64,000 nt of DNA, from positions 372,001 through 436,000 of the forward strand of contig NZ_SJPT01000005.1 in NCBI RefSeq assembly GCF_007860095.1, in the 5' to 3' direction. This stretch comes from Novipirellula galeiformis (GTDB lineage: Bacteria; Planctomycetota; Planctomycetia; Pirellulales; Pirellulaceae). The translations under genes and the position numbers were made by a program. Positions 231 through 20,828 of this stretch are shown here, piece by piece (position 1 is the first letter of the stretch; every line of letters starts with the position of its first letter). The notes under the pieces were generated by a model, which was not told the origin of the DNA, did no database searches, and saw nothing but the letters and a program-made list of their open reading frames with translations.

Positions 231-246
231 TGCAAACAGTGCGCCA
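231..246 (-). promoter_or_regulatory. Predicted sigma-54 (-24/-12) promoter for the nitroreductase gene
   Basis: Read on the minus strand the site is TGGCGCACTGTTTGCA. It matches TGGCAC-N5-TTGCW with one change, and the GG and GC pairs are exactly ten bases apart. It points at the nitroreductase start at 146, and an NtrC-type activator gene lies at 11392-12843. Confidence 0.6.
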
Positions 247-311
247 CGTCACGGCAATCGAAACATGCGCAGACACATTCCTCTCGCACCAGAATGATCG
301 ACAACCGCTCG

Positions 312-1793
312 CTACAGCACGGGGCTGAACAAACGTGCGATGGCGGTACCAACGCGAGCCAACCAGGGTCGGAGTGGCCCGTCCAACGCATTGCTCCACT
401 GAGATTCGGCAAAATCTTGCTCCAGCATGTTGGCGACTTCTGTGATCAAGCTTGGTTCTGCGATCGCCACCATCAATTCAAAGTTCAAGTGCAAGGAACG
501 ATTGTCAAAGTTGGTCGACCCGATCAACACCAACTCATCATCGACCAAAACGCATTTTTGATGCAACACGCCTCCTTGATATCGATAAACCGGAATTCCA
601 AGCTCCGCCAACTCTTGTTCGTAGTGGTACCCGGCCATGTAGACCGCCCATTGGTCGGCAACCGAGGGAATCAAGAGTCGCACATCCACCCCACGCGCCC
701 GCGCCATCGACAACGCTACCATCAAGGCGTCATCGGGAACCAAATACGGCGTGCTAATCCACAATCGCTCTCTCGCCGCCCCCGCTACCGCCGCGAACAT
801 CATCGTAGCGCGTGGCCGTGGATCGGCAGGTCCGGTGGCACACACCGCTGCTAACCCCGAGTCGTTTTGCGGGTTGGGATCGCGATCCCATCTTGCCTCC
901 GGCAAATCGATCCGCGCCGCCCAGTAGTAGTCACCCGCAAACACGGCTTGAACTTTTCTTGCCAATTCGCCATGGATCTCCACCGCGGTGTCGCGCCACC
1001 GCGTCACCCAACTCGCCTTGCCAAGATACTCATCCCCTAAATTCAAACCGCCCACGATGGCGACCTTGCCGTCGACGATCACCAACTTGCGATGATTGCG
1101 AAAATTGATTTGAAATCGGTTCACGAATCCTTGCCGTGTGTTAAACGCACGGACGTCGACGCCTCCCTCGGCCAAGCGATCCAAGTAGGCTTGGCTCAGC
1201 CGCAAACACCCTACTTCGTCATACAACAATCGCACCACAACCCCACGCGCTGCGGATGCGACTAAGGCCTCGGCAACTCGATTCCCCAGCTCGTCATCGC
1301 GAATGATATAGAAAGCGAGGTAGAGATACTCTTGTGCCGCTTCAATCTGGGATAGCAACGTGTCGAAGAACGCTTCGCCGTCAATCAGTAGCCGAAAGGT
1401 ATTGCCCGTGCAGAGGGGCGTGTCCAAAACATCGGCCAAATACTCCAACGTCGTGTTGGCCGATGTCGTGCTGGCCGACGTTGACCGCGCGTTCACTTCG
1501 GTGACCAATTCTCGACGAACCAACTCGACCGATTGGACATACCGCTCGCCTACGGCACGAATCGCTTCTCGATAACCTTCGAAGCGGTGCCGCGCAAACA
1601 CCCAATACATCGGCAATACCAGGAACGGAATTGTGATCAAACCAATCACCCACGCCACCGCCGCCTGGGATGTACGAACATGACGTAGCGAGTGAAACGC
1701 AGATGCGATTGCCAACAGTTCGATCAAAATCACGATCGCGGGAATCACCGTGATGAACCACCACTGGTCGGTAAGTGAATCAAATATCGACAT
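312..1793 (-). CDS. cls: Cardiolipin synthase (phospholipase D family)
   Basis: This 493-residue protein condenses two phosphatidylglycerols, or a related phospholipid pair, into cardiolipin at the inner membrane. Two hydrophobic helices at about residues 13-33 and 45-66 anchor it, followed by two PLD domains. The catalytic HxKxxxxD motifs are complete: H234/K236/D241 in the HRKLVIVDG segment and H411/K413/D418 in the HQKCVLVDD segment. Length and order match bacterial Cls. It is the gene downstream of nothing obvious on its strand and is divergent from a universal stress protein. Placement in a stress island suggests membrane remodelling during stress (inference). Start is the ATG at 1791-1793. 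Confidence 0.9.
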   Translation of the reverse strand: MSIFDSLTDQWWFITVIPAIVILIELLAIASAFHSLRHVRTSQAAVAWVIGLITIPFLVLPMYWVFARHRFEGYREAIRAVGERYVQSVELVRRELVTEVNARSTSASTTSANTTLEYLADVLDTPLCTGNTFRLLIDGEAFFDTLLSQIEAAQEYLYLAFYIIRDDELGNRVAEALVASAARGVVVRLLYDEVGCLRLSQAYLDRLAEGGVDVRAFNTRQGFVNRFQINFRNHRKLVIVDGKVAIVGGLNLGDEYLGKASWVTRWRDTAVEIHGELARKVQAVFAGDYYWAARIDLPEARWDRDPNPQNDSGLAAVCATGPADPRPRATMMFAAVAGAARERLWISTPYLVPDDALMVALSMARARGVDVRLLIPSVADQWAVYMAGYHYEQELAELGIPVYRYQGGVLHQKCVLVDDELVLIGSTNFDNRSLHLNFELMVAIAEPSLITEVANMLEQDFAESQWSNALDGPLRPWLARVGTAIARLFSPVL

Positions 1794-2187
1794 AATAGAA
1801 CATTGTACCGCAATTAGTTGCCTCGACTCCCAGCCGAGCGCCCCCTCAGTTCGCTCCTTTCGCGTTGCAAACCATCGAAACTACGAGCGTCACAAGCCCA
1901 AAAACTCAATTCACCGGCTCGTGGATCCACCGGAGCCTGCATCTGCGGTGCTGTGCACATTGTCTCGCGTCGCCGTTAGCAATCGGTTCTGTTTGTCACG
2001 CTCCTTCCACGCTACGTCAACCGGCCGCCCCATTTCCGCTTCGGCCCGTGGTTTGCAAGCTTGCAAGATTTGCACATGGAATACCGCTCGACCGGGGGAT
2101 TACCGCGTGCAGGTGCATCGAGATGACATTTATCGTTACCACCACCCTCAAGTTTCTCATTCCTGTTTCAATCGTGGAGACCGAAAC
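1794..2187. other. Divergent intergenic region between cls and a stress-protein gene
   Basis: No supported gene. An open frame runs through it into the stress protein, but its codons look non-coding. A weaker sigma-54-like element, CGGCCCGTGGTTTGCA at 2042-2057 on the plus strand, has the correct GG-N10-GC spacing and a perfect -12 box. It could drive the stress protein at 2188. Confidence 0.4.
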
Positions 2188-2616
2188 ATGTCAGGATTAA
2201 TAGCCAAGCGAATCGTTGTCCCCGTCGATTTCAGTAAGATGTCGCTTGATGCCGTCGACCAAGCGCTCGAAATCGTTGAAAACGAAGGTTCGATTGATGT
2301 GATCCATGTGCTCTCGACCTTGCCCGCGATGGAGTATGGCAACTTGTATGGCACGGTCACCGATGAAACTCGAATTGAACACGTCAAAAAGAATCTTCGC
2401 GAACGGCTGTCCGACGCCAAACACGCCGCGACGACCATTCATGTGAGCATCGGCGATGCGGGGCGTGAAATCACAAGTTTCGCCGAACGCGAACACGCCG
2501 ATTTGATCGTCATTCCGTCTCACGGCTATGGGTTTGTCAAACATATCTTGCTGGGCTCGGTAGCCGAACGCGTGGTCCGGCTCGCCCATTGTCCGGTGCT
2601 TGTGTTACGCAACTAA
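2188..2616 (+). CDS. Universal stress protein, single UspA domain
   Basis: A 142-residue cytoplasmic protein with one UspA fold. It begins IVVPVDFS and ends with the nucleotide-loop segment ILLGSVAERVV and the terminal strand CPVLVLRN, as in ATP-binding Usp proteins. The ATG at 2188 was chosen because GGAGA at 2176-2180 sits seven bases upstream and because the conserved domain starts directly after it; the frame extends further upstream without domain signal. Such proteins bind ATP and aid survival under starvation or low oxygen (family knowledge). It is one of four Usp genes in the first 21 kb. A weak sigma-54-like site lies about 130 bp upstream. Confidence 0.9.
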   Translation: MSGLIAKRIVVPVDFSKMSLDAVDQALEIVENEGSIDVIHVLSTLPAMEYGNLYGTVTDETRIEHVKKNLRERLSDAKHAATTIHVSIGDAGREITSFAEREHADLIVIPSHGYGFVKHILLGSVAERVVRLAHCPVLVLRN

Positions 2617-2676
2617 GCGGTTTGCAACACCGAAGCACGCTGTCTTGAGATATCGACCTGAGCCGAAACTCCGACA

Positions 2677-3138
2677 CTATCCAAGTTGTTTTCGCAGCGT
2701 TTCCAGACAGACATCCAACGCGGTTTGAGTGTCAACGCCGATCGCCATCTGCGGCTGGAACGCTTCCGCTCGACCTAACCAGAGTGTGACCCGTTCGATG
2801 GGTTTGCCCAACGACTGTGCCATCCGGTAAGTCGTCGAGAGCCCCCAATCATGAGTGCCATGACTGGGCAGCATCTGGATTTGATTCCGGTGCTCGGGGT
2901 TCGCCCCCTCAAGTCGCCACAAGCAAACATGCTCGGGCAACCCAATCGCCGCATCCACCACATGAACGTGAGAAGCCAAATCAAGCCAGAACAAGATGTC
3001 GATGGGATGCCTAATTTTATGGAGCTCGACAGCGATCGGCGACCGCAACAGCGCGTCGATGACGCACCAGCCAAATTGGTCATCACCGTTCAAACTGCCT
3101 AGCCCAAGCACCACTTGGCCGCTTGGATTTACGTTCAT
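2677..3138 (-). CDS. [NiFe] hydrogenase maturation endopeptidase
   Basis: A 153-residue HybD/HoxW-family protease. After nickel insertion, enzymes of this family clip the C-terminal peptide of the hydrogenase large subunit just after the DPCxxCxxH motif. The N-terminal nucleus VLGLGSLNGDDQFGW carries the conserved GxGN/S-DD-xG motif with the nickel-sensing acidic residue, and a second acidic segment follows at VVDAAIG. Its ATG overlaps the stop of the large-subunit gene by four bases, so it is the last gene of hydG-hydD-hydA-protease and should be specific for that large subunit. A second, different endopeptidase is encoded at 37155-37736 for the other hydrogenase. Confidence 0.85.
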   Translation of the reverse strand: MNVNPSGQVVLGLGSLNGDDQFGWCVIDALLRSPIAVELHKIRHPIDILFWLDLASHVHVVDAAIGLPEHVCLWRLEGANPEHRNQIQMLPSHGTHDWGLSTTYRMAQSLGKPIERVTLWLGRAEAFQPQMAIGVDTQTALDVCLETLRKQLG

Positions 3139-4430
3139 CGCGGTCCCCGATCAATGGTCACTGCGTGAGTCGAACAACTAATACAGGGATCATAGGTACG
3201 AATCAGTTTCTCGCATTCGGCGGCAATGATTTCATCCGGTTCATGAATCAGTTGCGGTAGATACAAACACAAATCGGATTCGATTTGTCGCTGGTTCTGT
3301 GACGTGGGTGGAACAATCTTTGCCTTGGTGACGAGTCCGTCATCACTGATCTCGTAGTGATGGTACATCATCCCACGCGGTGCTTCGGTCGCGGCACATC
3401 CGAAGCCGGCCTTGGCAACATGAGGCATAAAGGCTTCCTTCGTTTCACGGTACTCTTCGATGATCAAGATCGCTTGCTGCAAGCAGCTAACGACTTCGAT
3501 GATCCGAGCGAGGATGGAGCGGAAACGATTTTGCATCAAGGAAGGTGGGGCGATTCGATTTGCCAGACGGAGTGCGTCTGGAACGAGCCGATGACGATTC
3601 AGCGTGAGTCGTGCCAGGGGGCCTAGCAAGTAAGACGAAGGGTGATCGCGACGAGTCGAATGCAGGGCGTTGCTGTGAGCCACCTGAGTTTCGGCGAAAT
3701 CCCGCTCATACTCGCCGACATCGATTGCGGGAAATCGCGTCGACGCAATCACGCCTTCGTTCATCGCGTATTCATCGGGATGATGCAGCGCCACCCACTC
3801 GCAATCGGGCTCGAACGAGGGAAAGTCAAATCCAGCGATCCACTCCGCCGAGTCGATCGCCGCATCGAGCGCCCCACAAAGGGGTTGCAACAATGACGTC
3901 AGTTCATCCCGCGACGGCAAGCGATGAAAGCCGCCTACCCGAACGTTGACCGGATGAATCGCGCGGCCCCCGAGAATTTCGACAATGGAATTGCCTGTTT
4001 TCTTGATGCGCAATCCATCATTGATGCGTTCTGGAAACTGCTTAGCCAGTTCGATGCCGTTGGCACATCCAAAAAAGTCGGCTGCGTTGAGCATGAAGAT
4101 ATGTAGGGCGTGGCTTTCGATCCATTCGCCACAGTAAAGCAAACGCCGTAGTTGCCGAATCTCGGGTGTCACCGCAATGCCCAAGGCGGCCTCCAACGCA
4201 TGCACCGATACCATTTGGTATGCGACCGGACAAATCCCACAAATTCTGGCCGTCATGTCGGGCACGTCTTGAATCGATCGTCCACAAAGAAAGGCTTCAA
4301 AGAACCGCGGTGGCTCATAGATACAAAGACGCACCTCTGCGATTTCGTTGCCGTCGATGCGGATGTGCAGCGCTCCCTCGCCTTCGACTCGAGTCAGTGC
4401 ATTGACGGTGATCTTTCGACTACGGCTCAT
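3135..4430 (-). CDS. hydA: [NiFe] hydrogenase large (alpha) subunit, group 3b-like
   Basis: A 431-residue catalytic subunit carrying the Ni-Fe(CN)2CO site. The N-terminal nickel ligands are in RICGICP (C64, C67) and the C-terminal ones in DPCISCSTH (C416, C419). The nine residues after H422 would be removed by the adjacent protease. The compact size, the absence of export signals and the neighbours (NAD(P)/FAD subunit and [2Fe-2S] protein) match the cytosolic NADP-linked sulfhydrogenase type rather than membrane uptake enzymes. It overlaps hydD and the protease gene by four bases each (ATGA), so translation is coupled. The group assignment comes from motifs and gene content, not from a tree. 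Confidence 0.9.
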   Translation of the reverse strand: MSRSRKITVNALTRVEGEGALHIRIDGNEIAEVRLCIYEPPRFFEAFLCGRSIQDVPDMTARICGICPVAYQMVSVHALEAALGIAVTPEIRQLRRLLYCGEWIESHALHIFMLNAADFFGCANGIELAKQFPERINDGLRIKKTGNSIVEILGGRAIHPVNVRVGGFHRLPSRDELTSLLQPLCGALDAAIDSAEWIAGFDFPSFEPDCEWVALHHPDEYAMNEGVIASTRFPAIDVGEYERDFAETQVAHSNALHSTRRDHPSSYLLGPLARLTLNRHRLVPDALRLANRIAPPSLMQNRFRSILARIIEVVSCLQQAILIIEEYRETKEAFMPHVAKAGFGCAATEAPRGMMYHHYEISDDGLVTKAKIVPPTSQNQRQIESDLCLYLPQLIHEPDEIIAAECEKLIRTYDPCISCSTHAVTIDRGPR

Positions 4431-5242
4431 GGCGCAGGCCGATTCGTGGGATGCTCGGATTCGATGCGGTTGCTTTCAATCTGAAACAACTTCGCAGCGG
4501 AGTTCATGTTTCGCAGCTGATGAATCATCTGCAAGGGCGTGACCCCTACTTCGAGATAGTGCTCGGACATCGCTTTTGCATTCGCTTGGTCACAGGGGCC
4601 AAAACAGCCGTAGCATGGTCGGTGGTACGCTGGACAGATCGCTCCGCACCCGGCCTGCGTGATCGGGCCCAAACAGGGCTTCGCTTGGGTCACCGCAATG
4701 CACACCACGCCGCGCCGCTTGCAATCCAAGCAAACACTGTGTGAGGGAATATTCGGTCTGCGTTGGTTGATGAACGCCAACACGACCTCTAACAATTGAA
4801 CCTTATCCACCGGGCAACCACGAAGTTCAAAATCGACTGTCACGTGATCGCTGATCGCGGTGCTGGTGGCGAGCGAATCGATGTATTCGGGATGCGCGTA
4901 GACACGTTGCAAGTATTCATCGTGATCGGCCCAATTCCGCAGCGATTGGATACCGCCCGCCGTTGCGCATGCGCCGATGGTGACCAAGACGCGTGATTGT
5001 CGTCGAATCTCGCGAATGCGATCTTCATCCTCGTGAGTCGAGATCGAGCCTTCCACGAGCGTCAAATCAAAAGGTCCCGTCTGCGTATGGCTACTGAGTT
5101 CCAAGAAATGAACGATCTCAACCTTGTCCGCCAAAGCGAGCAACTCATCCTCACAGCTGAGCAGTGAAAGTTGGCAACCGTCACAGGAGGCGAACTTAAA
5201 AACCGCCAGGCGTTTCTTTTCTTTCATTGGCAAATTCGTCAT
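4427..5242 (-). CDS. hydD: [NiFe] hydrogenase small (delta) subunit
   Basis: A 271-residue iron-sulfur subunit that passes electrons from the NiFe site. The proximal-cluster motif FASCDGCQ has C20 and C23, with further cysteines at GACAT and RGCP. The C-terminal half is cysteine-rich (CLDCKRRG, CLGPITQAGCGAICP, CYGCFGPC) and provides additional [4Fe-4S] ligands. There is no Tat signal peptide, so the complex is cytoplasmic. It lies between hydG and hydA with ATGA overlaps on both sides. The tail after residue 250 is poorly conserved-looking. Confidence 0.88.
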   Translation of the reverse strand: MTNLPMKEKKRLAVFKFASCDGCQLSLLSCEDELLALADKVEIVHFLELSSHTQTGPFDLTLVEGSISTHEDEDRIREIRRQSRVLVTIGACATAGGIQSLRNWADHDEYLQRVYAHPEYIDSLATSTAISDHVTVDFELRGCPVDKVQLLEVVLAFINQRRPNIPSHSVCLDCKRRGVVCIAVTQAKPCLGPITQAGCGAICPAYHRPCYGCFGPCDQANAKAMSEHYLEVGVTPLQMIHQLRNMNSAAKLFQIESNRIESEHPTNRPAP

Positions 5243-6087
5243 AGATCTTTGACCTCCAACAATGCCTCGATGAGATCGAAACGCAGCACCGGCCCGTCTT
5301 TACAAACGAAATGGGGCCCGAATTGACAGTGCCCACACGTGCCTACGGCGCAGTTCATGTTACGCTCGAGCGATACCCACATCCGTCGCCGCTCGAATCC
5401 TCGCGAGATCGCCATCTGAATCGTGTACATCATCATGACCTCGGGACCACACGTCATTAGCGACGCTCCGGCGGGCTTGAATCGGTTCAATCGCTCCAGC
5501 AATAGCGTCACGACACCAATGTTCCCCGTCCAAGTCGATTCCGCGCGATCCACGGTCGTTTGCACGTTGATCCCCCCGGCTTTCCAGCGAGAATATTCGT
5601 TGCGGTAGAGCAGGTCGCGGGGAGTTCGTGCACCGATCAACAGGTGCACTTCCCCAAACTCGCTACGGCGACGAATCAACTGATTTACCAACGACCGCAT
5701 CGGCGCCAAACCGATCCCCCCACACACCAGCACCAAATCGGCACCGACGCATTCATCGATCGGCCAAGCCGAACCAAACGGGCCTCGCACCCCGAGTGTC
5801 GCCCCCACCGACAAACGAAACATCGCTCCGGTGACATTACCTACTTTGCGAATGGTGTGTAGCAGGAGGTCTGAGTGCAGGGCATCTCCACTGAGCGAAA
5901 TCGCGGTTTCCCCCACTCCCGGCATGTACAGCATGTTGAACTGGCCCGGCTTTGCCGGCACTCGGGGTTTCGACTTCGCATCGACCCAGGCAAGCTCAAA
6001 CGTGGCAACGCCCGGCGTCTCGGCCCGGATCGCGGTGACCACAGCAGCCTGGGTATGCCAAGGATTGCGGTACGCTGGTTCGCTCAT
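5239..6087 (-). CDS. hydG: Hydrogenase gamma subunit, FAD/NAD(P)-binding oxidoreductase
   Basis: A 282-residue ferredoxin-reductase-type subunit that exchanges electrons between the iron-sulfur chain and NAD(P)H. It has an N-terminal FAD barrel (about 1-100), a nucleotide-binding domain with CGGIGLAPMRS, and a C-terminal [2Fe-2S] motif CAVGTCGHCQ...CKDGPV, as in HydG/PyrK-like proteins. The start MSEPAYRN at 6087 was preferred to the longer frame beginning at 6147 because the extra 20 residues have no domain signal and overlap the next gene. The matching beta subunit, hydB, is not adjacent but 10 kb away on the other strand. Confidence 0.87.
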   Translation of the reverse strand: MSEPAYRNPWHTQAAVVTAIRAETPGVATFELAWVDAKSKPRVPAKPGQFNMLYMPGVGETAISLSGDALHSDLLLHTIRKVGNVTGAMFRLSVGATLGVRGPFGSAWPIDECVGADLVLVCGGIGLAPMRSLVNQLIRRRSEFGEVHLLIGARTPRDLLYRNEYSRWKAGGINVQTTVDRAESTWTGNIGVVTLLLERLNRFKPAGASLMTCGPEVMMMYTIQMAISRGFERRRMWVSLERNMNCAVGTCGHCQFGPHFVCKDGPVLRFDLIEALLEVKDL

Positions 6088-6143
6088 GAGTGCTATCCAC
6101 TGGATCCGCCGTGAGGAGTCCGAACACGCGATAATGATTGAAT

Positions 6144-6656
6144 TCACCGAGGACGCGCGGTGGACCTTGATTTGGAGAACGACTGCGCCGTCTCCTGAGG
6201 TGCAATTCTTGATTCTGGCTGTTCTTCGTGCTCGTACTCAGCATCGCGGTACTCGTACTCGTCACCCGCATTGTACGGTGCGTTGGATTCGGAGACAGCG
6301 TCAGCGCGGGCGATCAGTCGCGTCAGCATCGAAACAATCCGTTTGAGCGTTCGTTTCAATTCGCCGTGCACTTTGTCACCAAGCCCGTCCGTAACGGCGA
6401 GTACATCCTGAATCGAAGCGCATTCTAATGCCGATCCGCGGGCAATATCGAGAAATCGATTTCGATCCTTGAGGCTGCGTTTGCCGTTGCCTTCGGCAAT
6501 GTTCAGCGGAATCGATTGAGCGGCGCGAACCCATTGGTCACGGGCATGACGATGAAGACCGACTAAATCCTTTGCGACCGAAAACGACGAAGCGACGTAG
6601 TCAATCGACAGCCGGTAAACATCAAGTCGATCATGGTCGAAGATTGGTTCGGTCAT
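6144..6656 (-). CDS. Four-helix-bundle protein (23S rRNA intervening-sequence protein family)
   Basis: A 170-residue protein whose first 115 residues match the S23/IVP-type four-helix bundle family: LDVYRLSIDYV, then QWVRAAQSIPLNIAEGNGK and RFLDIARGSALECASIQDVL. The family's role is unclear; members sit inside 23S rRNA insertions or as solitary genes. The C-terminal 50 residues are low-complexity and acidic (EYEYRDAEYEHEEQ). This tail is encoded by the same GAGTAC/GAGCAC hexamers that form a tandem array just upstream of the start codon. It precedes hydG by 56 bp on the same strand but has no obvious functional link to it. Confidence 0.75.
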   Translation of the reverse strand: MTEPIFDHDRLDVYRLSIDYVASSFSVAKDLVGLHRHARDQWVRAAQSIPLNIAEGNGKRSLKDRNRFLDIARGSALECASIQDVLAVTDGLGDKVHGELKRTLKRIVSMLTRLIARADAVSESNAPYNAGDEYEYRDAEYEHEEQPESRIAPQETAQSFSKSRSTARPR

Positions 6657-6670
6657 CAGTGCCCCGTTTC

Positions 6671-6718: not shown

Positions 6719-6924
6719 GAACTCTTCAATGCCAGTAACGAGTCGTTCCTATGACGCTGAGCGGCAGAAGTGCATCTGTGATGCCAAGCAATGCCAGGAC
6801 GCTTCGTTTACGCGAGTTGCGACCCGAACATGATCGCCAATGTGCTCTCGTGCTCATCGCGTCTGTGCTATGGGGAGCAATTTCAAGCAATCCGCTTCCA
6901 ATCACCACGCGTGGAGGGGCCTAT

Positions 6925-13174: not shown

Positions 13175-13336
13175 ACATCAAAATCAAAACGCACTTCTTG
13201 TGCCGATTCCGACGGGCCGCTTGACCGCAGTGATCGGGGAGTCGCCGACGCCCGACGTTTCACGAAGGCCCGTCTCGACGTTGCGACGTAGCTCGTCCTT
13301 GCTCATTTTCACTCGAACAGATCAAACCGTTGCACG

Positions 13337-13352
13337 AGGCACAGCGTTTGCG
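13337..13352 (+). promoter_or_regulatory. Predicted sigma-54 promoter for the tandem Usp gene
   Basis: AGGCACAGCGTTTGCG matches TGGCAC-N5-TTGCW with correct GG-N10-GC spacing. It lies about 50 bp before the ATG at 13400. A palindrome GCACTTCTTGTGC at 13191-13203 is a candidate upstream activator site. Confidence 0.6.
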
Positions 13353-13399: not shown

Positions 13400-14326
13400 A
13401 TGCGTGTGTTAGCGGCGGTCGATCAATCGGAGTACGCCTCCTTCGCATTGGATTGTCTGAAGCGACTGCCGTGCCACGACGAAGTTGACCTTTCACTCCT
13501 CAGCGTTGCTCCGATGGTCCCCGAGTATGATCTCAGCGGCACCGCGTTCGCCATGGATGCCTCGGTGATCATGAAACGCGAGATCGAGTTGATGCGAAAA
13601 TCACTCAACGCGATGGTCGCGTTTGCTCACGATGAATTCCGATCGATTGAGACAAGCACTCCGATCGGGTCACCCGCTACGGAGATCATCCGGTTCGCAA
13701 AAGAAAAGCGAGCCGACCTTGTGCTCTTAGGGGCAACAGGCCATTCCGCGATTGCACGCGTTTTGCTGGGCAGCGTCTCTGACACCGTGGCCACCCACGT
13801 CGAATGCTCGGCATTGGTGGTCCGTCCACAGGGCGAACAGAAGCCTGAGCAACACGCGGCAAGCCCCGCGCCTCGACGTATCTTGATCGCGATTGGCGAT
13901 GCCGCCAGCGACGCGAGTCTGACCACATGGGTCACTCGTTTTCGCCTTCCGACGACGACCCAGATTCACTTGGTTCACGTCAAACCGATCCTGCAATTCT
14001 ACGACGAAGATCTGTTTCAATACGCATCAAAGTTTCGCGAACCGACCCCATCGATCTCCGAAGAAACCATTGCAACACTCAAGTCGCAACTTCAGTCGCA
14101 AGGTTTTGCCACGCGATCGAAATTAATCCCTGCAAAGCACATCGGGCAAACCTTGCTGGAGTACGCTCAAAGTGAAAAATGCGATCTAATCATCACGGGT
14201 GACCAACACGAGACATTGATCCACCGGATATTCTTAGGCAGTAATTCACGGCATGTTTTGCGACACGCCGAATGTAGCGTGCTGATTTCCCGCGACGTCC
14301 CGCCCTCGGCTAACGATCCAAGTTAG
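13400..14326 (+). CDS. Universal stress protein, two tandem UspA domains
   Basis: A 308-residue protein with two Usp domains (about 1-145 and 155-300). The first has the complete ATP-binding loop GATGHSAIARVLLGS (G-2x-G-9x-G-S). The second has a degenerate loop around HRIFLGSNSRHVLRHAECSVL, so only the first is likely to bind ATP. The ATG at 13400 follows AGGAGAAG at 13388-13395; the frame starts 14 codons earlier without a ribosome site. Preceded by a sigma-54 promoter match. Confidence 0.9.
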   Translation: MRVLAAVDQSEYASFALDCLKRLPCHDEVDLSLLSVAPMVPEYDLSGTAFAMDASVIMKREIELMRKSLNAMVAFAHDEFRSIETSTPIGSPATEIIRFAKEKRADLVLLGATGHSAIARVLLGSVSDTVATHVECSALVVRPQGEQKPEQHAASPAPRRILIAIGDAASDASLTTWVTRFRLPTTTQIHLVHVKPILQFYDEDLFQYASKFREPTPSISEETIATLKSQLQSQGFATRSKLIPAKHIGQTLLEYAQSEKCDLIITGDQHETLIHRIFLGSNSRHVLRHAECSVLISRDVPPSANDPS

Positions 14327-14394: not shown

Positions 14395-14862
14395 CTATCC
14401 CATGCTCGCGACCAAACGCATAAAGTCGCTTGAGGACAACATGCCTAACAATTTTCCGTTCTTCGTAACGGCGAGGTGATGGATCCCCAATTCGGTCATC
14501 TGTTTTGCCGCTTCCCACATCGATCGCCCTGGTTCGATCGATGCCACGCTCTCACTCATCACCTCGGTCACTTTGTCGCTTCCCAATCGTCGTTGAATCA
14601 AGTCCACGGCCCACAAACAATCTTCGTAGTGGGGATAGTCACTGTCGAGCAATTGGTCCGTGGAAAGGACCACACTTGCGAGGTCACGCTGGGTCACGAT
14701 CCCGATGACGAGCCCCTGAGGATCCACCACGGGGACCGAAGTGATCTGCTTGCCCTTCATCAACTCTAAAACATCGCGAACCGTCCCCTCGCGCTGCACC
14801 GAGTTCGTGGGGATCGACATCCATTGCTGGACGGAGTCTTCATGGCTGCCGAACTTAGTCAT
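14395..14862 (-). CDS. Two-CBS-domain protein
   Basis: A 155-residue cytoplasmic protein made of two CBS motifs (about 12-68 and 92-150). Conserved segments are ITSVPVVDPQGLVIGIVTQRD and IHHLAVTKNGKLLGMLSSSDF. Such pairs form a Bateman module that senses adenine nucleotides or NAD-type ligands. Stand-alone forms such as Hrp1 of mycobacteria belong to hypoxia regulons (family knowledge). AGGAG precedes the ATG at 14862. Its start overlaps the 3' end of the cytochrome gene by eight bases, so the two are co-transcribed from the sigma-54 promoter at 15359. Confidence 0.85.
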   Translation of the reverse strand: MTKFGSHEDSVQQWMSIPTNSVQREGTVRDVLELMKGKQITSVPVVDPQGLVIGIVTQRDLASVVLSTDQLLDSDYPHYEDCLWAVDLIQRRLGSDKVTEVMSESVASIEPGRSMWEAAKQMTELGIHHLAVTKNGKLLGMLSSSDFMRLVASMG

Positions 14863-15310
14863 TGCTGACTCCTGTTTTGGAGGCATCCGGCGCACGCGTC
14901 TCGGAAGCATTGGCATCCGAACTGCGCAGCAATTTGTGACAACTGACACAACTAAGGGTCAAGTGATTGAACGCCAAAGTCGCTCCCTCTAGATTGCCTT
15001 TGTCGGATTGGCGAATCAGCTCGTCACAAATTCGCTCAAAGGCATGCAATTGCACCTGGTATTCAGGGTTCCCACGGCGAACGAACCCTTCCACCTTGCT
15101 CAGCAAACGCATTTGACGAGCGTTCTCAGCCATGCCTTTGAAGTCCGCCATCGCAAGTCCTCGCAAAACATCTTGCGAGTATTCCATTTTCTTTTGCATC
15201 CAGAAACTAGTCGGTTTCCCATCCGACTCGGCTTGCGATTCCTTGGGGGAATCCGCAAGCAGGGTCATGGAAAAAACGGTGGCCAAAACGACGGTGGCGA
15301 TCATACGCAT
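14855..15310 (-). CDS. Small secreted c-type cytochrome, cytochrome c'-like
   Basis: A 151-residue protein with a signal peptide (MRMIATVVLATVFSMTLLAD) and one heme-binding CVSCH motif close to the C-terminus. A mostly helical body precedes the motif. Position of the heme site and helical content recall cytochrome c', but similarity is only general; it could be another class II cytochrome. The ATG at 15310 was chosen since the signal peptide starts there and GAGG lies upstream. The last 20 residues after the heme site are low-complexity. First gene of a two-gene operon with the CBS protein. Confidence 0.75.
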   Translation of the reverse strand: MRMIATVVLATVFSMTLLADSPKESQAESDGKPTSFWMQKKMEYSQDVLRGLAMADFKGMAENARQMRLLSKVEGFVRRGNPEYQVQLHAFERICDELIRQSDKGNLEGATLAFNHLTLSCVSCHKLLRSSDANASETRAPDASKTGVSND

Positions 15311-15358
15311 GGGTAAGTCCTCAGGTGACGGTGCTAAACGTTGCAAAACAATCCAACG

Positions 15359-15373
15359 GCAAAGCCTGTACCA
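15359..15373 (-). promoter_or_regulatory. Predicted sigma-54 promoter for cytochrome-CBS operon
   Basis: Minus-strand sequence TGGTACAGGCTTTGC matches TGGCAC-N5-TTGC with one change and correct spacing. It is 49 bp before the cytochrome start at 15310. Confidence 0.6.
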
Positions 15374-15460: not shown

Positions 15461-15478
15461 TGTGTCACATGGCACACA
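15461..15478. promoter_or_regulatory. Candidate activator-binding palindrome between divergent sigma-54 promoters
   Basis: TGTGTCACATGGCACACA is an 18-bp imperfect palindrome. It lies about 90 bp from the cytochrome promoter and 130 bp from the hydB promoter, a distance typical of NtrC-type enhancers. A similar GTGC-N6-GCAC half-site pair is at about 11284-11297, upstream of the activator gene. The assignment is inference. Confidence 0.3.
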
Positions 15479-15607: not shown

Positions 15608-15623
15608 TGGCACTCGTTTTGCG
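15608..15623 (+). promoter_or_regulatory. Predicted sigma-54 promoter for cNMP-binding protein and hydB
   Basis: TGGCACTCGTTTTGCG has a perfect TGGCAC box, five bases, and TTGC. It faces the genes starting at 15773. With the site at 15359 it forms a divergent sigma-54 pair in a 460-bp region with no gene. Confidence 0.65.
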
Positions 15624-15772: not shown

Positions 15773-16243
15773 ATGAGTCTCGACGAACTCGAAACGCTGA
15801 GTCTCGCCAGCGAGCTTTCGCCAACGTCGCGTACCCGTCTCGCCAATTTAGCCACGATCGTCGCGTGGCCACCGCAATCCCTTTTGTTTCGCGAGGGAGA
15901 GTGTCACCGTTACATTTATTGGATCCAACAAGGACGCGTCCGATTAGAGATGTCGGGAACCGGCGGCGGTGCGATGGCAATGTTGACGGTCGGCCCAGGC
16001 GATTTGTTGGGTTGGTCTGCATTGCTCGGAGACCAACGTATGACGGCAACCGCGATCACCGCGACAGCGACGACGTTGATTGCGTTGGATGCCGATGCAC
16101 TGCAGCAACTCTGTGACGAGAACCATGAGATCGGCTACAAGGTCATGCAAATGATCGCCAAGTCGATTTCCAAGCGTTTGCTGGCGACTCGCTTGCAATT
16201 GCTCGACCTGTTTCAGCCCCCAATGGCCTCTGTGGATGAATGA
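15773..16243 (+). CDS. Cyclic-nucleotide-binding-domain protein without HTH
   Basis: A 156-residue Crp-like sensor domain, with the beta-roll segments LLFREGECHRYIYWIQQGRVRLEM and VGPGDLLGWSALL and a C-terminal dimerisation helix. It lacks the DNA-binding helix-turn-helix of full Crp/Fnr proteins, so it is probably an allosteric or accessory protein rather than a transcription factor. Such short cNMP-binding proteins commonly precede hydB in group 3b operons (family knowledge). It overlaps hydB by eight bases. AGGA precedes the ATG at 15773. A sigma-54 promoter lies upstream. Confidence 0.85.
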   Translation: MSLDELETLSLASELSPTSRTRLANLATIVAWPPQSLLFREGECHRYIYWIQQGRVRLEMSGTGGGAMAMLTVGPGDLLGWSALLGDQRMTATAITATATTLIALDADALQQLCDENHEIGYKVMQMIAKSISKRLLATRLQLLDLFQPPMASVDE

Positions 16244-17363
16244 CGCATCGAATCGATCGAATCCGCCGATGAAGTGGTTACCGCGTCAGGAACTGCAACG
16301 GTTAATCGACGTCTTACAGCAGCGTGGCTATCAGGTGATTGGCCCGACGAAGCGTGACACGGCGATCGTTTATGAACCGATCGACCAAGCCGCACAATTA
16401 CCAGCGGGTTGGACGGACGATCAATCCCCGGCAACCTACCGAATTCGCGAAACGAAAAACGACCGCCAATTCTACTTTAACTCCAGTCCCGATTCTTGGA
16501 AAAAGTATCTCTATCCCGCTCGCCAAGAGCTCACCGGCGCCACGTTGACCAAGGACGGTTGGAAATTCGCCAGCAAAATTGCCGATCCTCCGCGACGGGC
16601 TTTGCTCGGCATACGCGCCTGCGACTTGGCGGCAATCCGGATCCAGGATCGTGTATTCAGCGAAGGTGACTACGTGGATCCGGTGTACACCCGCCGCCGT
16701 GAAGCGGTGCTCCTGATCGCGGTTCAATGCTCCACCGCCGCACCCACTTGTTTTTGCACCTCGATGGACACCGGGCCCAAATGCCATGCGGGTTTCGATA
16801 TCGCATTGACCGAGACGGACGAGGGGTTCTGTGTTGAAACCGATAGTGAAATGGGTGCGAGCATCGTGGCCGAGTTGCAGTTGGCCCCTACCGATAGCGA
16901 ACAAACAGCCTTAGCTGCTAACGAAACCAATAACGCGATCCGCGCAATCACAAAGCGGCTTGATACGACCGACATTCACGACCTGTTGTTGGAGCATCTT
17001 GAACATCCGCATTGGAGCGAGGTTGCCCAGCGATGCCTTTCCTGTACGAACTGTACGATGGTTTGTCCGACTTGTTTTTGCGCGACCGTCAACGAGTTGA
17101 GTGATCTGGACCAGACCGAGGTGACTCGTGTTCGCCAATGGGACTCCTGTTTCAATCTCGACTTTAGCTACACGGCGGGTGGAACCGTTCGCAACGATGT
17201 TCGCAGCCGTTATCGACAATGGCTGACGCATAAGCTTGCGACTTGGCACGACCAATTCGACACCAGCGGGTGTACGGGTTGCGGTCGCTGTATCACTTGG
17301 TGTCCGGTTGGCATCGATTTGACCGAAGAGGTCGCGGCGATTCGAGAAAACCCGGCAAGGTAA
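16236..17363 (+). CDS. hydB: Hydrogenase beta subunit, [4Fe-4S] protein
   Basis: A 375-residue protein of the sulfhydrogenase beta-subunit family, which relays electrons to or from the flavin subunit. The middle has [10 protein letters not shown] and [10 protein letters not shown]. The C-terminal half carries two ferredoxin-type motifs, [16 protein letters not shown] and [16 protein letters not shown], enough for two [4Fe-4S] clusters. It overlaps the cNMP-binding gene. In most 3b operons hydB is next to hydG; here hydG, hydD and hydA are 10 kb away in the opposite orientation. An alternative start at MKWLPRQ (16269) is possible. Confidence 0.9.
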
Positions 17364-17621: not shown

Positions 17622-18647
17622 TCACGGCCGAGGACTCACCGAATCCGCAGGGGAGGCGACGTTGAGCCGGGCCGACAACGCGGCGATGTAGTGCACCCGT
17701 TCTTGGTCATTGGCAAATTCGAGCGGGCGATGCAACTGCAAATCCCGGAGCGATTTAAAATGGTGCCGCTGTAGAAATGCGACCAAGCCGTCGATCAACG
17801 TGCGAATCGTGGTAGGCCCCGAGCGATACAATTCGGACGTGATCATGGCCACGTCGGCTCCCGCCAACAACACTTTAATGACGTCTTCGCAACTGGCAAT
17901 TCCTCCGCTTGCCGCAATCGACATCGCGGGACAGGTTGCATGAACTCGCATGATGGGGTTGAGCAGTTGAATCGCCGACCCCGGAGCAGTCAAACTCCAG
18001 AATGACTTTAACTTCAAACTTTCGAGACAGATATCCGTATCGGGACCACGTCCGTACACCACAAAGCCATTGGCTCCGGAACATACCCGGCGGGCAAGAT
18101 GCGGCAGACTAACGCCGACGCGTTCGAACTTGATAAACAAAGGGATCGAGATGGCTTCATTCACCTCCCCCACTGCGGCAACGATCGAGTCTTCGATCTC
18201 GCCCGATCCACGATAATCGCTCACCGGTGCATGATAGACATTCAGCTCAACCCCGGCGGCGCCCGCCTGTTCTAATTCTCCCGCGAAATCAAGCCACCCG
18301 TTCGCCGAATAGCCATTCAAGCTTGCGATCACGGGAATGGAGAGCTGCGAACTCGCACGCTCGACCAATGCCAAATAGTCTTCGGCACCTTCGCCTGCGG
18401 AACGGATTCGAAATCGTTCGCTGCGGGCCAACAATGCCTGTTCACGCTCGGTGATGGGGCGTCCCATCTTTTGTGTCCAGCGGATCACCTGTTCTTCAAA
18501 AACCGATGGCAACACGACAGCCCCCGCACCGGCCGCCTCGAGACTTGAGCGTGTTTGTTCGTCGCTCACCATCGGCGAGGCCCCCACGACAATTGGGGAA
18601 TCAAGAATCAAGCCACCGTACGCGGTCGAGAGATCAATCTTCATCAT
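17622..18647 (-). CDS. Dihydroorotate dehydrogenase-like flavoprotein
   Basis: A 341-residue TIM-barrel FMN protein. Family segments are [16 protein letters not shown] at the N-terminus, [21 protein letters not shown] and [21 protein letters not shown] near the phosphate-binding end. Pyrimidine synthesis is not its likely role. DHOD-like proteins of this branch occur next to hydrogenases and pyruvate:ferredoxin oxidoreductases and probably act on another small molecule (family knowledge; substrate unknown). It is convergent with hydB. Start [11 protein letters not shown] at 18647 was chosen over a frame beginning 21 codons earlier because the conserved fold starts here. Confidence 0.8.
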
Positions 18648-18816
18648 AGTGCTCAGAGAAAAGACCCACCTCGCCGTCGAGGAGGAAATGCAATCGAAAA
18701 GAAGGAACACCCAAGGCCGCGAAACAGACTCCCCCCCAAGAAATTCGAGAGAGGGAGGTCAGCGGTACGCATCGCGAACGGCGAGAACCTCGGCTATTCC
18801 ATGTTCAAGTAACGAC

Positions 18817-19767
18817 TCAACGGCCGACCTCTTTACCAGCGACCTCGATCGGCGAGAGGAAGCCTGTGGGTTTGAGCGCGAGCATCGAACACGTTAGCTC
18901 CGAAATGATGGAATCGGCGGTGTTGCCAATCAAGAACCCAGGAACTCCGGTGCGACAAACCGTGCCCATGACGATCAAGTCGGCTTCGATTTGGTCCGCA
19001 ACCGCCCGAATGACTTCGGCCGGATCGCCTCGTTCCAAGTGGACATGAACGTGGGTGTCCTCCGCCCAGGGAGCTTGCAACAAATCATCGAGTGCCTGTC
19101 GCACCTTCGCTTCCTGCATTCCGACCAGACGATCGACCGTATCGTCCCCCATTCGCTTTCGCAAAGGCTCTTCCATCCACAGCCCCCAAACGCTAACGAG
19201 ATGCAGTTGAGCGTCTTCTCGTGCGGCAATGGAGAATGCAAGCTCAAGAATATTGCGATTGAGGTTTTGATGAACCTTGTCTTCGGTATCCAAGTCGATC
19301 GCAGCCAGCACTTGGTCGAACGGCCCGTGAACTTCGGGTTTGAGCAGCCAGACAGGACAGGGGCACATCCGCAACAGCGATCTCGCGACACTCCCAAAAA
19401 GCCGTCCTGTGGTCGAAAAACCGTCTGCCGTTTTGATCACCAAGTCGATGTCTTCAGCAATCACCCTGCGGATAATCTCCGTCGCGGGATCACCGCTAGC
19501 GACCACCAATTCGAGCGAAACCGCCGTATCGGCGTACTCCGACATGCGATCCAACAACCGCTGTTCACGATCCTTGACGACCAAGTTCTGGAGGTCATTG
19601 GAGGGAAATGCTTTGGTGATCAAGCCGACCGCTTTAGGAATGGGCTTGATCACATCCATGACCGTCAAGGCGGCACCGTTCGTGATCGCCAAGCCGACCG
19701 CGCGTGAGATCGCGGTCTCATCGGAACCGGTACCGGCATAACATAGGATTCGCTTGAAACGTTGCAT
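18817..19767 (-). CDS. Universal stress protein, two tandem domains (UspE-like)
   Basis: A 316-residue tandem Usp protein. Domain one (about 1-145) ends in GRLFGSVARSLLRMCPCPVWLL and domain two (about 155-300) in GVPGFLIGNTADSIISELTCSMLAL. Neither loop keeps the full G-2x-G-9x-G-S/T pattern, which in UspE-type proteins goes with other ligands or partner binding rather than ATP. The ATG at 19767 follows GAGAGGA; the frame opens earlier without support. It lies downstream of another tandem Usp gene on the same strand and may be co-transcribed with it. Confidence 0.88.
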   Translation of the reverse strand: MQRFKRILCYAGTGSDETAISRAVGLAITNGAALTVMDVIKPIPKAVGLITKAFPSNDLQNLVVKDREQRLLDRMSEYADTAVSLELVVASGDPATEIIRRVIAEDIDLVIKTADGFSTTGRLFGSVARSLLRMCPCPVWLLKPEVHGPFDQVLAAIDLDTEDKVHQNLNRNILELAFSIAAREDAQLHLVSVWGLWMEEPLRKRMGDDTVDRLVGMQEAKVRQALDDLLQAPWAEDTHVHVHLERGDPAEVIRAVADQIEADLIVMGTVCRTGVPGFLIGNTADSIISELTCSMLALKPTGFLSPIEVAGKEVGR

Positions 19768-19810
19768 CGTCCTCTCGCTCCGGTGGATGATTCCTCTGTT
19801 GCACGACACG

Positions 19811-19875
19811 CCTTATTCATCAACGCCTTACTCAATAACGGCTTACTCAACAACGGCTTACTCAACAACGGCCTG
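19811..19875. repeat. Tandem 15-bp repeats spanning a Usp stop codon
   Basis: Units of the form AACGGCTTACTCAAC are repeated three to four times with slight decay. The stop codon of the Usp gene at 19858 lies inside the array, so gain or loss of a unit could change its C-terminus. Confidence 0.75.
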
Positions 19876-20775
19876 CTCGGCAGACGCCACAGGATCGGCG
19901 CCCTGAAACAAGCGATTGCGAGTGATCCAAACGCTGCAACGAGCATGCCGAAGGGCATAACGCGATGTGCTGCCTAGCAAAAACCGACTCAAGCCATAGC
20001 GTGGCGTCTCGCCCAACACCAACAGGTCAATGTCGTTCTGCTCGGCAAACATCACAATGCCTTCTCCCACATGCTCGCTTTCGAGCAAATGAGTCTGGGC
20101 TTGAGGCGCCACGCCCAACAGTTGTTCTTGGGCTTGTTTCAAGTACGCGTTGTATTGCGAAGCCGCATCGGAATCCTCTCGGAGCTCGCCAAAAAAGTTA
20201 TAGAGATACGAAGCAACGCAGAGCACATGAAACTCGGTATCGTGACGCCAAGCGATCTCGGCAATCTCCTTCAGTGCGGCTTGGGATGGGACGCGACCGT
20301 CGTACGTCAAACAAACTCGGCTCCCCCTCTCGGTAACCTCACGGTCGCTCGGTCGCACCACCCAAACGCTACAATGGGCATGTGTTGCCACATGATCGCT
20401 GACACTGCCTAGCAACACACGACTGATCTGCGAGCGTCCTTTCGCGCCGACCACAATCAGATCGGCGCCAATCTCGTCGGCCGTTTCGATAATCGTTTCA
20501 TTGACGCTCCCGTTTTCGATCCGCTGCCCGATCGACACATTGGCGCCGTCAAAGATCGCCGAAATTTTTCCATAGTGCTCCACTGCAAATTCGCGGTCTT
20601 GATCACAAGCCTTTTCAAAGGCCTCGACCACCCCATCGCTGTCGAGCCGATAGGGTCGCTGTACGACGGTCAGCACGGTTACATCCCAACGATCGTGATG
20701 AGCCAAACAAGCGACCTGATACGCAGCCTCGTCCGACGCCGCGGAGCCATCAACGGCGAGCAACACCTTGTGCAT
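19858..20775 (-). CDS. Universal stress protein, two tandem UspA domains
   Basis: A 305-residue protein. Domain one has a complete ATP loop GAKGRSQISRVLLGS. Domain two has the related but incomplete GETPRYGLSRFLLGSTS, ending in CSVWITRN. The start ATG at 20775 has AAGGAG upstream; a longer frame starting at 20886 is not supported. A perfect sigma-54 promoter match lies 40 bp upstream. The closest relative in the window is the tandem Usp at 13400, with the same VLLGSVSD...VATH loop. Confidence 0.9.
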   Translation of the reverse strand: MHKVLLAVDGSAASDEAAYQVACLAHHDRWDVTVLTVVQRPYRLDSDGVVEAFEKACDQDREFAVEHYGKISAIFDGANVSIGQRIENGSVNETIIETADEIGADLIVVGAKGRSQISRVLLGSVSDHVATHAHCSVWVVRPSDREVTERGSRVCLTYDGRVPSQAALKEIAEIAWRHDTEFHVLCVASYLYNFFGELREDSDAASQYNAYLKQAQEQLLGVAPQAQTHLLESEHVGEGIVMFAEQNDIDLLVLGETPRYGLSRFLLGSTSRYALRHARCSVWITRNRLFQGADPVASAEQAVVE

Positions 20776-20811
20776 CTCCGAATCTCCTTGGAGGAATTCC
20801 AAGAAAAAGAA

Positions 20812-20828
20812 AGCAAACGGAGTGCCAT
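20812..20828 (-). promoter_or_regulatory. Predicted sigma-54 promoter for the tandem Usp gene at 19858
   Basis: Minus-strand sequence ATGGCACTCCGTTTGCT is a full match to TGGCAC-N5-TTGCT. The -12 GC is about 38 bp before the start codon. This is the best such site in the window. Confidence 0.7.

Follow-up and report, generated by a model that had tools for sequence, protein, structure and literature searches.

What controls a gene island in which universal stress proteins (Usp), an Acg-type nitroreductase and an NAD(P)-type hydrogenase lie together? For the island in the 64,000-nucleotide window (the whole stretch of DNA analysed), a preliminary description had proposed a sigma-54/NtrC-type regulon joining these genes. 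Conserved promoters support this proposal, with further support from a phased candidate enhancer common to part of the promoters and from relatives, where comparable genes stand under comparable sites. In this planctomycete-like bacterium, a dormancy-type set of stress proteins, nitroreductase and hydrogenase seems to be controlled by a kinase that senses oxygen, together with a sigma-54 activator; the best explanation, and probably the right one, is a low-oxygen (redox-stress) regulon composed of a FixL-like sensor, an NtrC-type activator and sigma-54. Domains, sites, conservation, enrichment and phasing were taken from the sequence, from which we infer what the signal is, in which order and with which sign phosphate is passed on, and that the activator binds the enhancer dyad.

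Kinases, activator and predicted target genes

The NtrC-type activator and three kinases of the preliminary description were found in the island (Table 1). The activator has the domain composition of the NtrC family (receiver, AAA+ with a GAFTGA-type loop, Fis HTH); across 30 homologs the loop reads GSFTGA in 17, GAFTGA in 12 and GSFTSA in one. HK1, a FixL-type haem-PAS kinase by sequence, adds a likely sensor to the earlier reading. In the PDB, FixL sensor domains take the first seven places among its matches (E 2e-33), and His64 and Arg84, which by alignment to FixL we take to be the haem (proximal) His and one distal Arg, are kept in 9/9 relatives scored; the second FixL Arg is replaced. 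At this level HK1 has the haem-PAS residues expected of FixL, a proximal His and a distal Arg. It is syntenic with the activator in two same-genus genomes, G013 and G077, and was found in the vicinity of the activator at 9 of the 30 loci fetched, a count that speaks against the regulon proposed here.

The sole PDB match of the nitroreductase at E ≤ 0.001 is the Acg nitroreductase 2ymv (E 9e-23), and the best PDB matches of hydA are sulfhydrogenase 1 alpha chains (E 2e-60). With its sulfhydrogenase-type large subunit, the hydBGDA set belongs to the group 3b [NiFe] hydrogenases, here divided between two transcription units; the protease-like gene beside hydGDA has no Pfam match and is named by position. 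Pfam likewise gave no match for the CxxCH protein. Counterparts of the microprotein, also of 37 residues, occur in G013 and G077, and the Usp19, Usp18 and dihydroorotate-dehydrogenase (DHOD)-like genes form a probable operon. The CBS protein was also considered as a counterpart of mycobacterial Hrp1 and rejected, no Hrp1 entry being recognized, by what we presume to be its entry codes, among 38 PDB matches at E ≤ 0.001. In the fetched loci, a hydrogenase lies beside the conserved activator within the genus only; stress genes are kept around the activator in relatives.

Table 1 Genes, sigma-54 sites and candidate enhancer dyads of the island
Feature	Position	Strand	Remarks
Acg-type nitroreductase gene, 5' part	1..146	-	Continues out of window to -855
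Sigma-54 site, nitroreductase gene	231..246	-	Score 14.4; 85 bp before start
Candidate enhancer, short Usp gene	1952..1967	.	90 bp upstream of -24 element; score 10.2 (null p 0.019)
Sigma-54 site, short Usp gene	2042..2057	+	Score 11.1; kept in G013 as CGGCCCAGCGTTTGC
Short universal stress protein	2188..2616	+	Pfam Usp, E 8e-32
hydG-hydD-hydA and hydrogenase-protease-like gene, group 3b-like NAD(P) hydrogenase	2677..6147	-	Pfam (hydA, hydD, hydG)
Sigma-54 site upstream of hydGDA	6771..6786	-	TGGCATCACAGATGC; score 13.6
HK1, FixL-type haem-PAS histidine kinase, likely oxygen sensor	6925..8058	-	PAS, HisKA, HATPase
HK2, receiver-PAS-HisKA-HATPase kinase	8083..9558	-	Pfam; layout similar to NmpS
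Sigma-54 site, HK3	10068..10083	+	Score 12.0; conserved in G013 and G077
HK3, PAS kinase	10126..11244	+	PAS and HATPase by Pfam
Two candidate enhancer dyads before activator gene	11284-11299, 11306-11321	.	Scores 14.3, 14.9; second is a matrix-training instance
Weak sigma-54 site, activator gene (predicted autoregulation)	11363..11378	+	Score 11.2
NtrC-type activator (receiver, AAA+ with GSFTGA, Fis HTH)	11392..12843	+	Pfam
Putative membrane microprotein, 37 residues, conserved	12904..13017	-	No Pfam match
Sigma-54 site, microprotein	13190..13205	-	CGGCACAAGAAGTGC
Sigma-54-like site before Usp13	13337..13352	+	Score 11.8
Usp13, tandem Usp	13400..14326	+	Pfam
Cytochrome-like (CxxCH) gene and CBS-domain gene	14395..15310	-	CBS by Pfam; CxxCH seen in translation
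Sigma-54 site, cytochrome-CBS	15358..15373	-	Score 12.4; G013: TGGTACGGACTTTGC
Candidate dyad common to divergent cytochrome-CBS and cNMP-hydB promoters	15461..15476	.	TGTGTCACATGGCACA; score 16.9; matrix-training instance
Sigma-54 site, cNMP-hydB	15608..15623	+	Score 15.9; 150 bp before gene
cNMP-binding protein and hydB (Fe-S subunit)	15773..17363	+	Pfam; relatives
Usp19, Usp18, DHOD-like gene, co-directional	17622..20844	-	Pfam
Sigma-54 site, Usp operon	20812..20827	-	Score 18.1
Candidate enhancer dyad, Usp operon	20870..20885	.	Starts 58 bp upstream of -24 element; score 16.9; matrix-training instance

Sigma-54 promoters and their conservation

Sites were scored with a generic -24/-12 matrix, home-made with weights based on the published consensus and independent of this window, and genes were called with a home-made gene caller. 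All seven sites first described as resembling TGGCAC-N5-TTGC are present, each with its GG-N10-GC spacing: those at 15608 and 20812 are exact, those at 231, 13337 and 15358 have one mismatch, and the two called weaker (2042 and 10068) have two mismatches each. Motif and spacing, a location upstream of genes and the single sigma-54 gene in the genome mark them as predicted -24/-12 promoters. Beyond these seven, a further Usp gene has an exact match 44 bp ahead of it (-1515..-1500, just beyond the window), and conserved sites precede hydGDA, the activator gene and the microprotein.

Conservation in related genomes, proposed earlier as a check, was found for six of the seven, which stand before the same genes in one same-genus genome; the exception, 13337, has no counterpart in G013 or G077. 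Security also varies among the rest, the nitroreductase site being degenerate in G013 (CGGCCC..TTTGC at the equivalent position). Counterparts of the hydGDA site precede hydG in G013 (score 13.5) and G077 (15.0), the activator site is identical at ten core positions in both genomes with a different spacer, and the microprotein site is conserved in G013 and found in G077 (14.9). The Usp operon site recurs in G013 (17.0) and before Usp19 homologs at loci L111 (18.0) and L118 (17.4). For cNMP-hydB, sites in G013 (14.0) and G077 (16.1) lie ~60 bp before the gene as against 150 bp here, so that the site is present but its distance is not kept.

Among 49 ortholog upstream pairs, 9 conserved sites were found at a threshold of 10, against a mean of 0.05 and a maximum of 2 for 100 column-shuffled matrices. 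Six can be assigned clearly to island promoters (short Usp and Usp19 once each, HK3 and the activator twice each); the other three comprise a CsbD-like gene outside the island, one site in coding sequence and one pairing of non-equivalent positions. When all 19 aligned site pairs are pooled, those that fail among them, the core is 73% identical, compared with 44% for spacers and 49% for flanks. GG..GC is kept in 11 of the 19, counting cNMP (G013), which is read across alignment gaps rather than in contiguous sequence, and one pair that sets the upstream Usp's site against the promoter of the operon holding its G013 counterpart. Of the eight others, hydG and microprotein in G077 were left unaligned, and for these two, as for cytochrome (G013) and cNMP (G077), other scans found a site. 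Usp13 has lost its site in both genomes, and none was found for cytochrome in G077; the upstream Usp in G013 is without a site of its own.

Enrichment over background

Matches with at most two mismatches show a modest excess over chance (95 versus a mean of 72.2, s.d. 7.3); what distinguishes the sites is position, not raw count. From -2600 to 23000, 11 promoter-facing sites scoring at least 11 stand before 11 of 23 called genes, one of them (19935) inside a coding region, whereas a 400-kb background from the same genome, with 272 genes, has 17 such sites. Promoter-facing sites are enriched over this background (Fisher p = 3e-6, taking a conservative 11/27 genes and counting the 17 background sites as 17 genes). 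At a score of at least 14, the numbers are 12 promoter-facing sites in 144 kb around the window versus 1 in 400 kb of background. Across 28 loci from relatives, a promoter site of at least 12 precedes 24 of 93 island-homologous genes versus 19 of 321 other genes there and 5 of 272 background genes in this genome (24/93 versus 5/272, p 2e-11); none was found before 6 DHOD-like, 9 HK1, 10 HK2 and 5 cytochrome homologs in the relatives, a result that weighs against the regulon.

All five Usp loci elsewhere in this genome were fetched, an exact dyad (contig C8) and an exact sigma-54 match (C7) being known beforehand. These two carry both elements (C8:27184, scores 15.7 and 19.7; C7:45617, 15.5 and 15.6), and the other three (C2:821k, C2:855k, C5:624k) have no sigma-54 site of at least 10.5. 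At other places in the genome, pyruvate phosphate dikinase and some of the Usp genes probably belong to the regulon as well.

A phased candidate enhancer

Many island promoters are accompanied by a candidate enhancer, YGTGC-N6-GCACR, in helical phase with the promoter, and some are not. The motif was first spotted by eye in five promoters; among the other 33, some of them orthologous to these five, 16 have it with at most two mismatches versus 6.7% of random segments. Because 14 instances served to train the enhancer matrix, the island dyad scores, pair counts and phasing are partly circular for those. Phasing gave R 0.65 at period 11 over 33 sites, a value reached by 0 of 5000 shuffles; leaving out the training instances provides a cleaner check (24 sites, p 0.0012). 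Background dyads of at least 13 number 2 in 400 kb. Enhancer and sigma-54 pairs number 25 in 531 kb around orthologous activators, including four whose dyads are training instances and one promoter counted twice, versus 1 in 400 kb of background; the flanks hold 1 in 160 kb. The short Usp dyad recurs at equal offset in G013 (16.9, but a training instance), and dyads also lie between the equivalents of the cytochrome-CBS and cNMP genes in G013 and G077.

Genome-wide, exact dyads are in mild excess (46 versus 31 for the reversed pattern), and no sigma-54 promoter was found at the dyad in loci chosen for strong dyads (C15, C2:669k, C6:27k). In two composite-pattern searches of 149 family genomes, the signal was not clearly apart from the reversed control; hand counts in 31 genomes with an activator match gave 48 composite patterns versus 43 reversed in one search and 41 versus 25 in the other.

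The sigma-54 promoters might be real and a CRP/FNR-type regulator, acting jointly with sigma-54, might occupy the phased dyad in place of the NtrC-type activator. CRP sites have TGTG..CACA ends, which the dyad resembles in addition to its length, with A at the fifth half-site base; some dyads fit well (for example, TGTGATCGATTTCACA at locus L116), and the island encodes a cNMP-domain protein. That protein has no HTH match, however, C occupies the fifth position in 51 of 66 half-sites, and 18 of 23 promoter-facing composites in relatives precede an activator or Usp gene, making CRP/FNR binding less likely and, in our judgement, unlikely.

Several sigma-54 regulons (nitrogen, envelope stress) clustered by accident and answering a signal other than oxygen would account for strong sites without an enhancer at 47855, 54989, 68671 and 69677, the last three of which point to other activators acting nearby. 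They would also suit the 19 strong matches among the 23 activator-domain matches in the genome and the weak or absent enhancer at nitroreductase, HK3, hydGDA, the microprotein and the Usp just outside the window. The dyad common to the other promoters, the synteny of the FixL-like kinase in G013 and G077, and the Usp, nitroreductase and hydrogenase content nevertheless render accidental clustering distinctly improbable. Finally, that the best-placed of many common TGGCAC-like sequences were simply picked is very improbable: matches with up to two mismatches are only ~1.3 times as frequent as by chance, but background comparison, shuffled matrices, aligned core identity and the exact site beyond the view of the preliminary description rule out chance as the whole explanation and make it unlikely for most sites, 13337 being less secure.

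Proposed signal path

Under the low-oxygen regulon that we prefer, HK1 probably senses O2, and the signal would reach the activator directly or via the receiver-bearing HK2 and the PAS kinase HK3. The activator would then bind the YGTGC-N6-GCACR dyad on one face of the helix and open sigma-54 RNA polymerase at -24/-12 promoters. The activator is predicted to control its own gene, HK3, both units of the group 3b-like hydrogenase (hydGDA, cNMP-hydB) and Usp genes, and further the DHOD-like enzyme, cytochrome-CBS and the Acg-type nitroreductase. Candidate sensor, activator, enhancer and promoters of a low-oxygen control circuit can all be placed.

Comparison with known systems

The HK1 sensor domain aligns to that of FixL, a kinase active without O2, and shares its haem His and one distal Arg; unlike in FixL-FixJ, the neighboring regulator is NtrC-type, and no receiver-plus-LuxR-type protein was found among the island proteins scanned. 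In HoxA/HupR-type regulation, an NtrC-type activator and a kinase control hydrogenase; the island shares this association, but with another hydrogenase group and much wider stress targets. DosR is a LuxR-type regulator and the Dos haem lies in a GAF domain, whereas here an NtrC-type AAA+ activator, not of the DosR class, would be paired with sigma-54 and a PAS haem.

The mechanism has a precedent in NmpRSTU of Myxococcus xanthus (2025), a regulon that answers low oxygen through an NtrC-like regulator and sigma-54 and includes CBS and Usp genes (PMC11841059). Shared are the NtrC-like regulator with sigma-54 and a hybrid kinase with an N-terminal receiver (NmpS there, HK2 with receiver-HisKA-CA here); predicted here from sequence to be shared are a haem sensor kinase, control of its own genes, CBS and Usp targets and the low-oxygen response (PMC11841059). 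There, however, a globin kinase that is active with O2 serves as sensor, whereas here it would be a FixL-type PAS; NmpT is a double receiver and HK3 a PAS kinase; the NmpR site is GCGCA-N5-TGCGC, and the dyad found here is YGTGC-N6-GCACR; and cbb3 oxidase and HemN are among the targets there, hydrogenase and Acg among the predicted ones here (PMC11841059). No globin domain matched in HK1, HK2 or HK3. In the part of the open-licence full-text literature covered, no planctomycete counterpart was found.

In M. smegmatis, the genes under dos control include those for Usps and Acg as well as two hydrogenases, Hhy and Hyh (PMC8125079). Like DosR/DosST, the island combines Usps and Acg with hydrogenases resembling both the Hhy and Hyh types in the window, together with haem-based sensing predicted from sequence; the 1h-type hydrogenase counts here as content, not as a regulon member (PMC8125079). 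The earlier suggestion of a counterpart of the mycobacterial dormancy regulon under another regulator is apt in content, with an NtrC-type regulator here. We lean toward a dormancy programme of the planctomycetes' own, with a FixL-like haem kinase, an NtrC/sigma-54 activator and a phased YGTGC-N6-GCACR enhancer, convergent on Dos in content: Usp, Acg, group 3b and perhaps group 1h hydrogenase, joined in relatives by Hsp20 and pyruvate phosphate dikinase. The island resembles the mycobacterial hypoxia programme in content but seems to use a different switch. This suggests that the combination of Usp, nitroreductase and hydrogenase is a response to oxygen loss that keeps recurring and has come under unrelated regulators on more than one occasion.

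Sigma-54 promoters in the island

The 7.40 Mb genome of Novipirellula galeiformis, of which the window is C5:372001-436000, holds one sigma-54 gene, and the sigma-54 activator domain has 23 matches in it, 19 of them strong. All seven sigma-54 sites of the preliminary description are present at the positions it gave: the five main sites comprise two exact matches to the consensus and three with one mismatch, and the two weaker ones (short Usp and HK3) have two mismatches each. Because the raw count of near-matches only modestly exceeds that in shuffled sequence (95 versus 72), site position was put to the test. With a generic -24/-12 matrix, 11 promoter-facing sites scoring at least 11 precede 11 of the 23 called genes between -2600 and 23000 (negative positions lie upstream of the window), as against 17 such sites for 272 called genes in 400 kb of the same genome (20 stretches of 20 kb), a density in the island above background; one of the 11, located within coding sequence, is perhaps spurious. 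Promoter-facing sites reaching 14 number 12 over 144 kb surrounding the window versus 1 in the 400 kb of background. The original observation is thus confirmed and extended, including by a site upstream of another tandem Usp gene that had been missed.

Features in and near the window (window coordinates)
Feature	Position	Strand	Remark
Sigma-54 site	-1515 to -1500		tandem Usp; exact consensus
Sigma-54 site	231		nitroreductase
Sigma-54 site	2042		short Usp
23S rRNA-intervening-sequence-type gene	6144-6656	-	between hydGDA promoter and hydG
HK1	6925-8058		histidine kinase
Sigma-54 site	10068		HK3
Activator gene	11392-12843		NtrC-type
Dyads, two copies			upstream of activator gene
Putative membrane microprotein	12904-13017	-	37 residues
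Sigma-54 site	13337		Usp13
Dyad	14935-14950		strong (16.0); inside cytochrome-like gene
Sigma-54 site	15359		cytochrome-CBS
Dyad, one copy			between divergent cytochrome-CBS and cNMP-hydB promoters
Sigma-54 site	15608		cNMP-hydB
Sigma-54 site	19935		within coding region
Dyad, one copy			starts 58 bp before Usp19 promoter
Sigma-54 site	20812		Usp19
Second hydrogenase cluster	35111-50229	-
HofG-like hydrogenase	41286-44220
Sigma-54-like site	47855		upstream of hypC; score 15.2
CsbD-like gene (presumed)	53451-53651
Sigma-54 site	54989		DUF2383-type gene (presumed)
Sigma-54 site	68671		MgtC-like gene (presumed)
Sigma-54 site	69677		PRC-barrel-like gene (presumed)

Conservation of the sites

The island is kept in two same-genus genomes, G013 (over 60 kb) and G077 (within a contig of 14 kb), and most of the proposed sites recur there: in G013 upstream of Usp19, cNMP-hydB, cytochrome-CBS, HK3, the activator, hydGDA and the short Usp, and in G077 upstream of cNMP-hydB, HK3, the activator and hydGDA. 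The Usp13 site recurs in neither, and that of the nitroreductase is degenerate in G013. The cNMP-hydB site lies about 60 bp from its gene in these relatives versus 150 here. When 49 pairs of upstream regions were compared automatically at a threshold of 10, nine conserved sites emerged (six clear island promoters, one outside the island, one coding and one pairing non-equivalent positions); 100 shuffled matrices gave 0.05 on average and never more than 2. In alignments from the window sites alone, GG..GC is kept in 11 of 19 pairs, in one case only by reading over gaps in the alignment. Identity over all 19, failures counted, is 73% for the core, 44% for the spacer and 49% for the flanks. The microprotein and its own sigma-54 site are conserved in both genomes; the hydGDA promoter is also conserved, and no 23S rRNA-intervening-sequence-type gene is called between it and hydG in G013 or G077.

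Activator matches with E ≤ 1e-150 occur in 31 of 149 family genomes, 28 of which provided 30 activator loci (60-83% identity). In the 28 fetched loci from beyond the genus (8-20 kb each), the activator often adjoins Usp, DHOD-like and kinase genes, and no hydrogenase subunits were found. Promoter sites scoring at least 12 precede 24 of 93 homologs of island genes in relatives' loci, compared with 19 of 321 other genes at those loci and 5 of this genome's 272 background genes; the homologs differ from the background genes with p 2e-11. Among the homologs, Usps stand out most (10/18), and the activator has 10/33; no site was found at DHOD-like, HK1, HK2 or cytochrome homologs, and other site-bearing genes resemble, by their N-termini, pyruvate phosphate dikinase and Hsp20. 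Enrichment, conservation and the similar genes under similar sites in relatives all support the sigma-54 regulon first proposed from the sequence. Two activator homologs (L079 in G011 and L080 in G075) have one TGA inside the matched frame.

A candidate enhancer

Many of these promoters are preceded by a dyad, first noticed as TGTGNC-N4-GNCACA and best described as YGTGC-N6-GCACR. Pairs of dyad and promoter number 25 in 531 kb around activator orthologs (four of the dyads having been used in matrix building and one promoter being counted twice), with 4 in the window and its surroundings (144 kb), versus 1 in 400 kb of background; 23 of the 25 precede a gene, which in 18 of the 23 is the activator or a Usp. 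Dyad offsets cluster near 46, 57, 69, 78 and 89, with a period of 11, and this helical phasing (R 0.65, 33 sites) was reached by none of 5000 shuffles and persists without the matrix-building instances (p 0.0012, 24 sites). Genome-wide, exact dyads are only mildly enriched (46, compared with 31 when the pattern is reversed). At three loci chosen for their strong dyads no sigma-54 promoter stood at the dyad, and no good copy was found at the nitroreductase, HK3, hydGDA, microprotein or upstream Usp promoters.

Elsewhere in the genome, two of the five other Usp loci (C8:27184 and C7:45617) have both elements, the dyad at C7:45617 being common to the Usp and a divergent gene, as does, more weakly, pyruvate phosphate dikinase (C7:52820). 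The remaining three, of which two are on C2 and one is on C5, yielded no sigma-54 site; a dyad lies nearby at both C2 loci. Hsp20 on C13 has a very strong site (19.2) and no dyad. The C7 loci belong to a second stress cluster (L275, C7:43466-55246) of Usps, a transporter-like gene and pyruvate phosphate dikinase, with sites and dyads similar to the island's and one dyad common to two divergent genes. The DUF2383-type, MgtC-like and PRC-barrel-like genes have sigma-54 sites and no enhancer dyad, and a conserved site precedes the CsbD-like gene; these four sites perhaps represent a second sigma-54 stress regulon.

Proposed sensor, targets and mechanism

The NtrC-type activator and three kinases recognized earlier are borne out by their domains. 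The activator combines a receiver, an AAA+ domain and a Fis HTH with a GSFTGA loop (GSFTGA or GAFTGA in 29 of 30 homologs); HK2 has an N-terminal receiver followed by PAS and kinase domains, and HK3 PAS and kinase domains. HK1 gives an alignment with haem-PAS structures of FixL (E 2e-33). The positions that correspond to the haem histidine and one distal arginine of FixL are kept in nine of nine relatives scored; a second FixL arginine is replaced in the HK1 alignment.

Among the proposed targets, the nitroreductase has Acg as its sole PDB match at E ≤ 0.001, HydA matches best sulfhydrogenase 1 alpha chains in the PDB, and the three best named relatives of HydB are from Planctomycetaceae or Planctomycetales MAGs. 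The second hydrogenase matches HofG of C. necator along 567 residues and is presumably group 1h-type; its cluster also contains hyp genes and genes for a NifU-like and a DUF5947 protein, and the dyad-less site upstream of hypC could serve it.

In FixL, haem without ligand at low oxygen leaves the kinase active. By analogy, low oxygen would probably leave HK1 haem unliganded and the kinase active, phosphate would pass to the activator directly or via HK2 or HK3, and the phosphorylated activator would bind the dyad and open the sigma-54 promoters. A less likely rival explanation is that the dyad is bound by a CRP-type protein rather than by the activator. A low-oxygen regulon running from a FixL-type kinase to an NtrC-type activator and sigma-54 is the best explanation and a likely one, with confidence slightly lowered because several island promoters are without an enhancer.

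Comparison with known systems

Searches of an open-licence library did not identify a planctomycete counterpart. NmpRSTU, a close mechanistic precedent, has in common with the island its NtrC-type output, the layout of the hybrid kinase, sensing by haem, autoregulation, and CBS and Usp genes as targets; its sensor is a globin and its DNA site a different one (PMC11841059). In Nmp the haem kinase works in the presence of oxygen and then keeps NmpS silent (PMC11841059); if the sensor here is FixL-type, the sign of phosphotransfer may differ. The likeness to the mycobacterial dormancy regulon suggested earlier is one of gene content, the M. smegmatis dos regulon sharing Usp, Acg, Hhy and Hyh with the window (PMC8125079).
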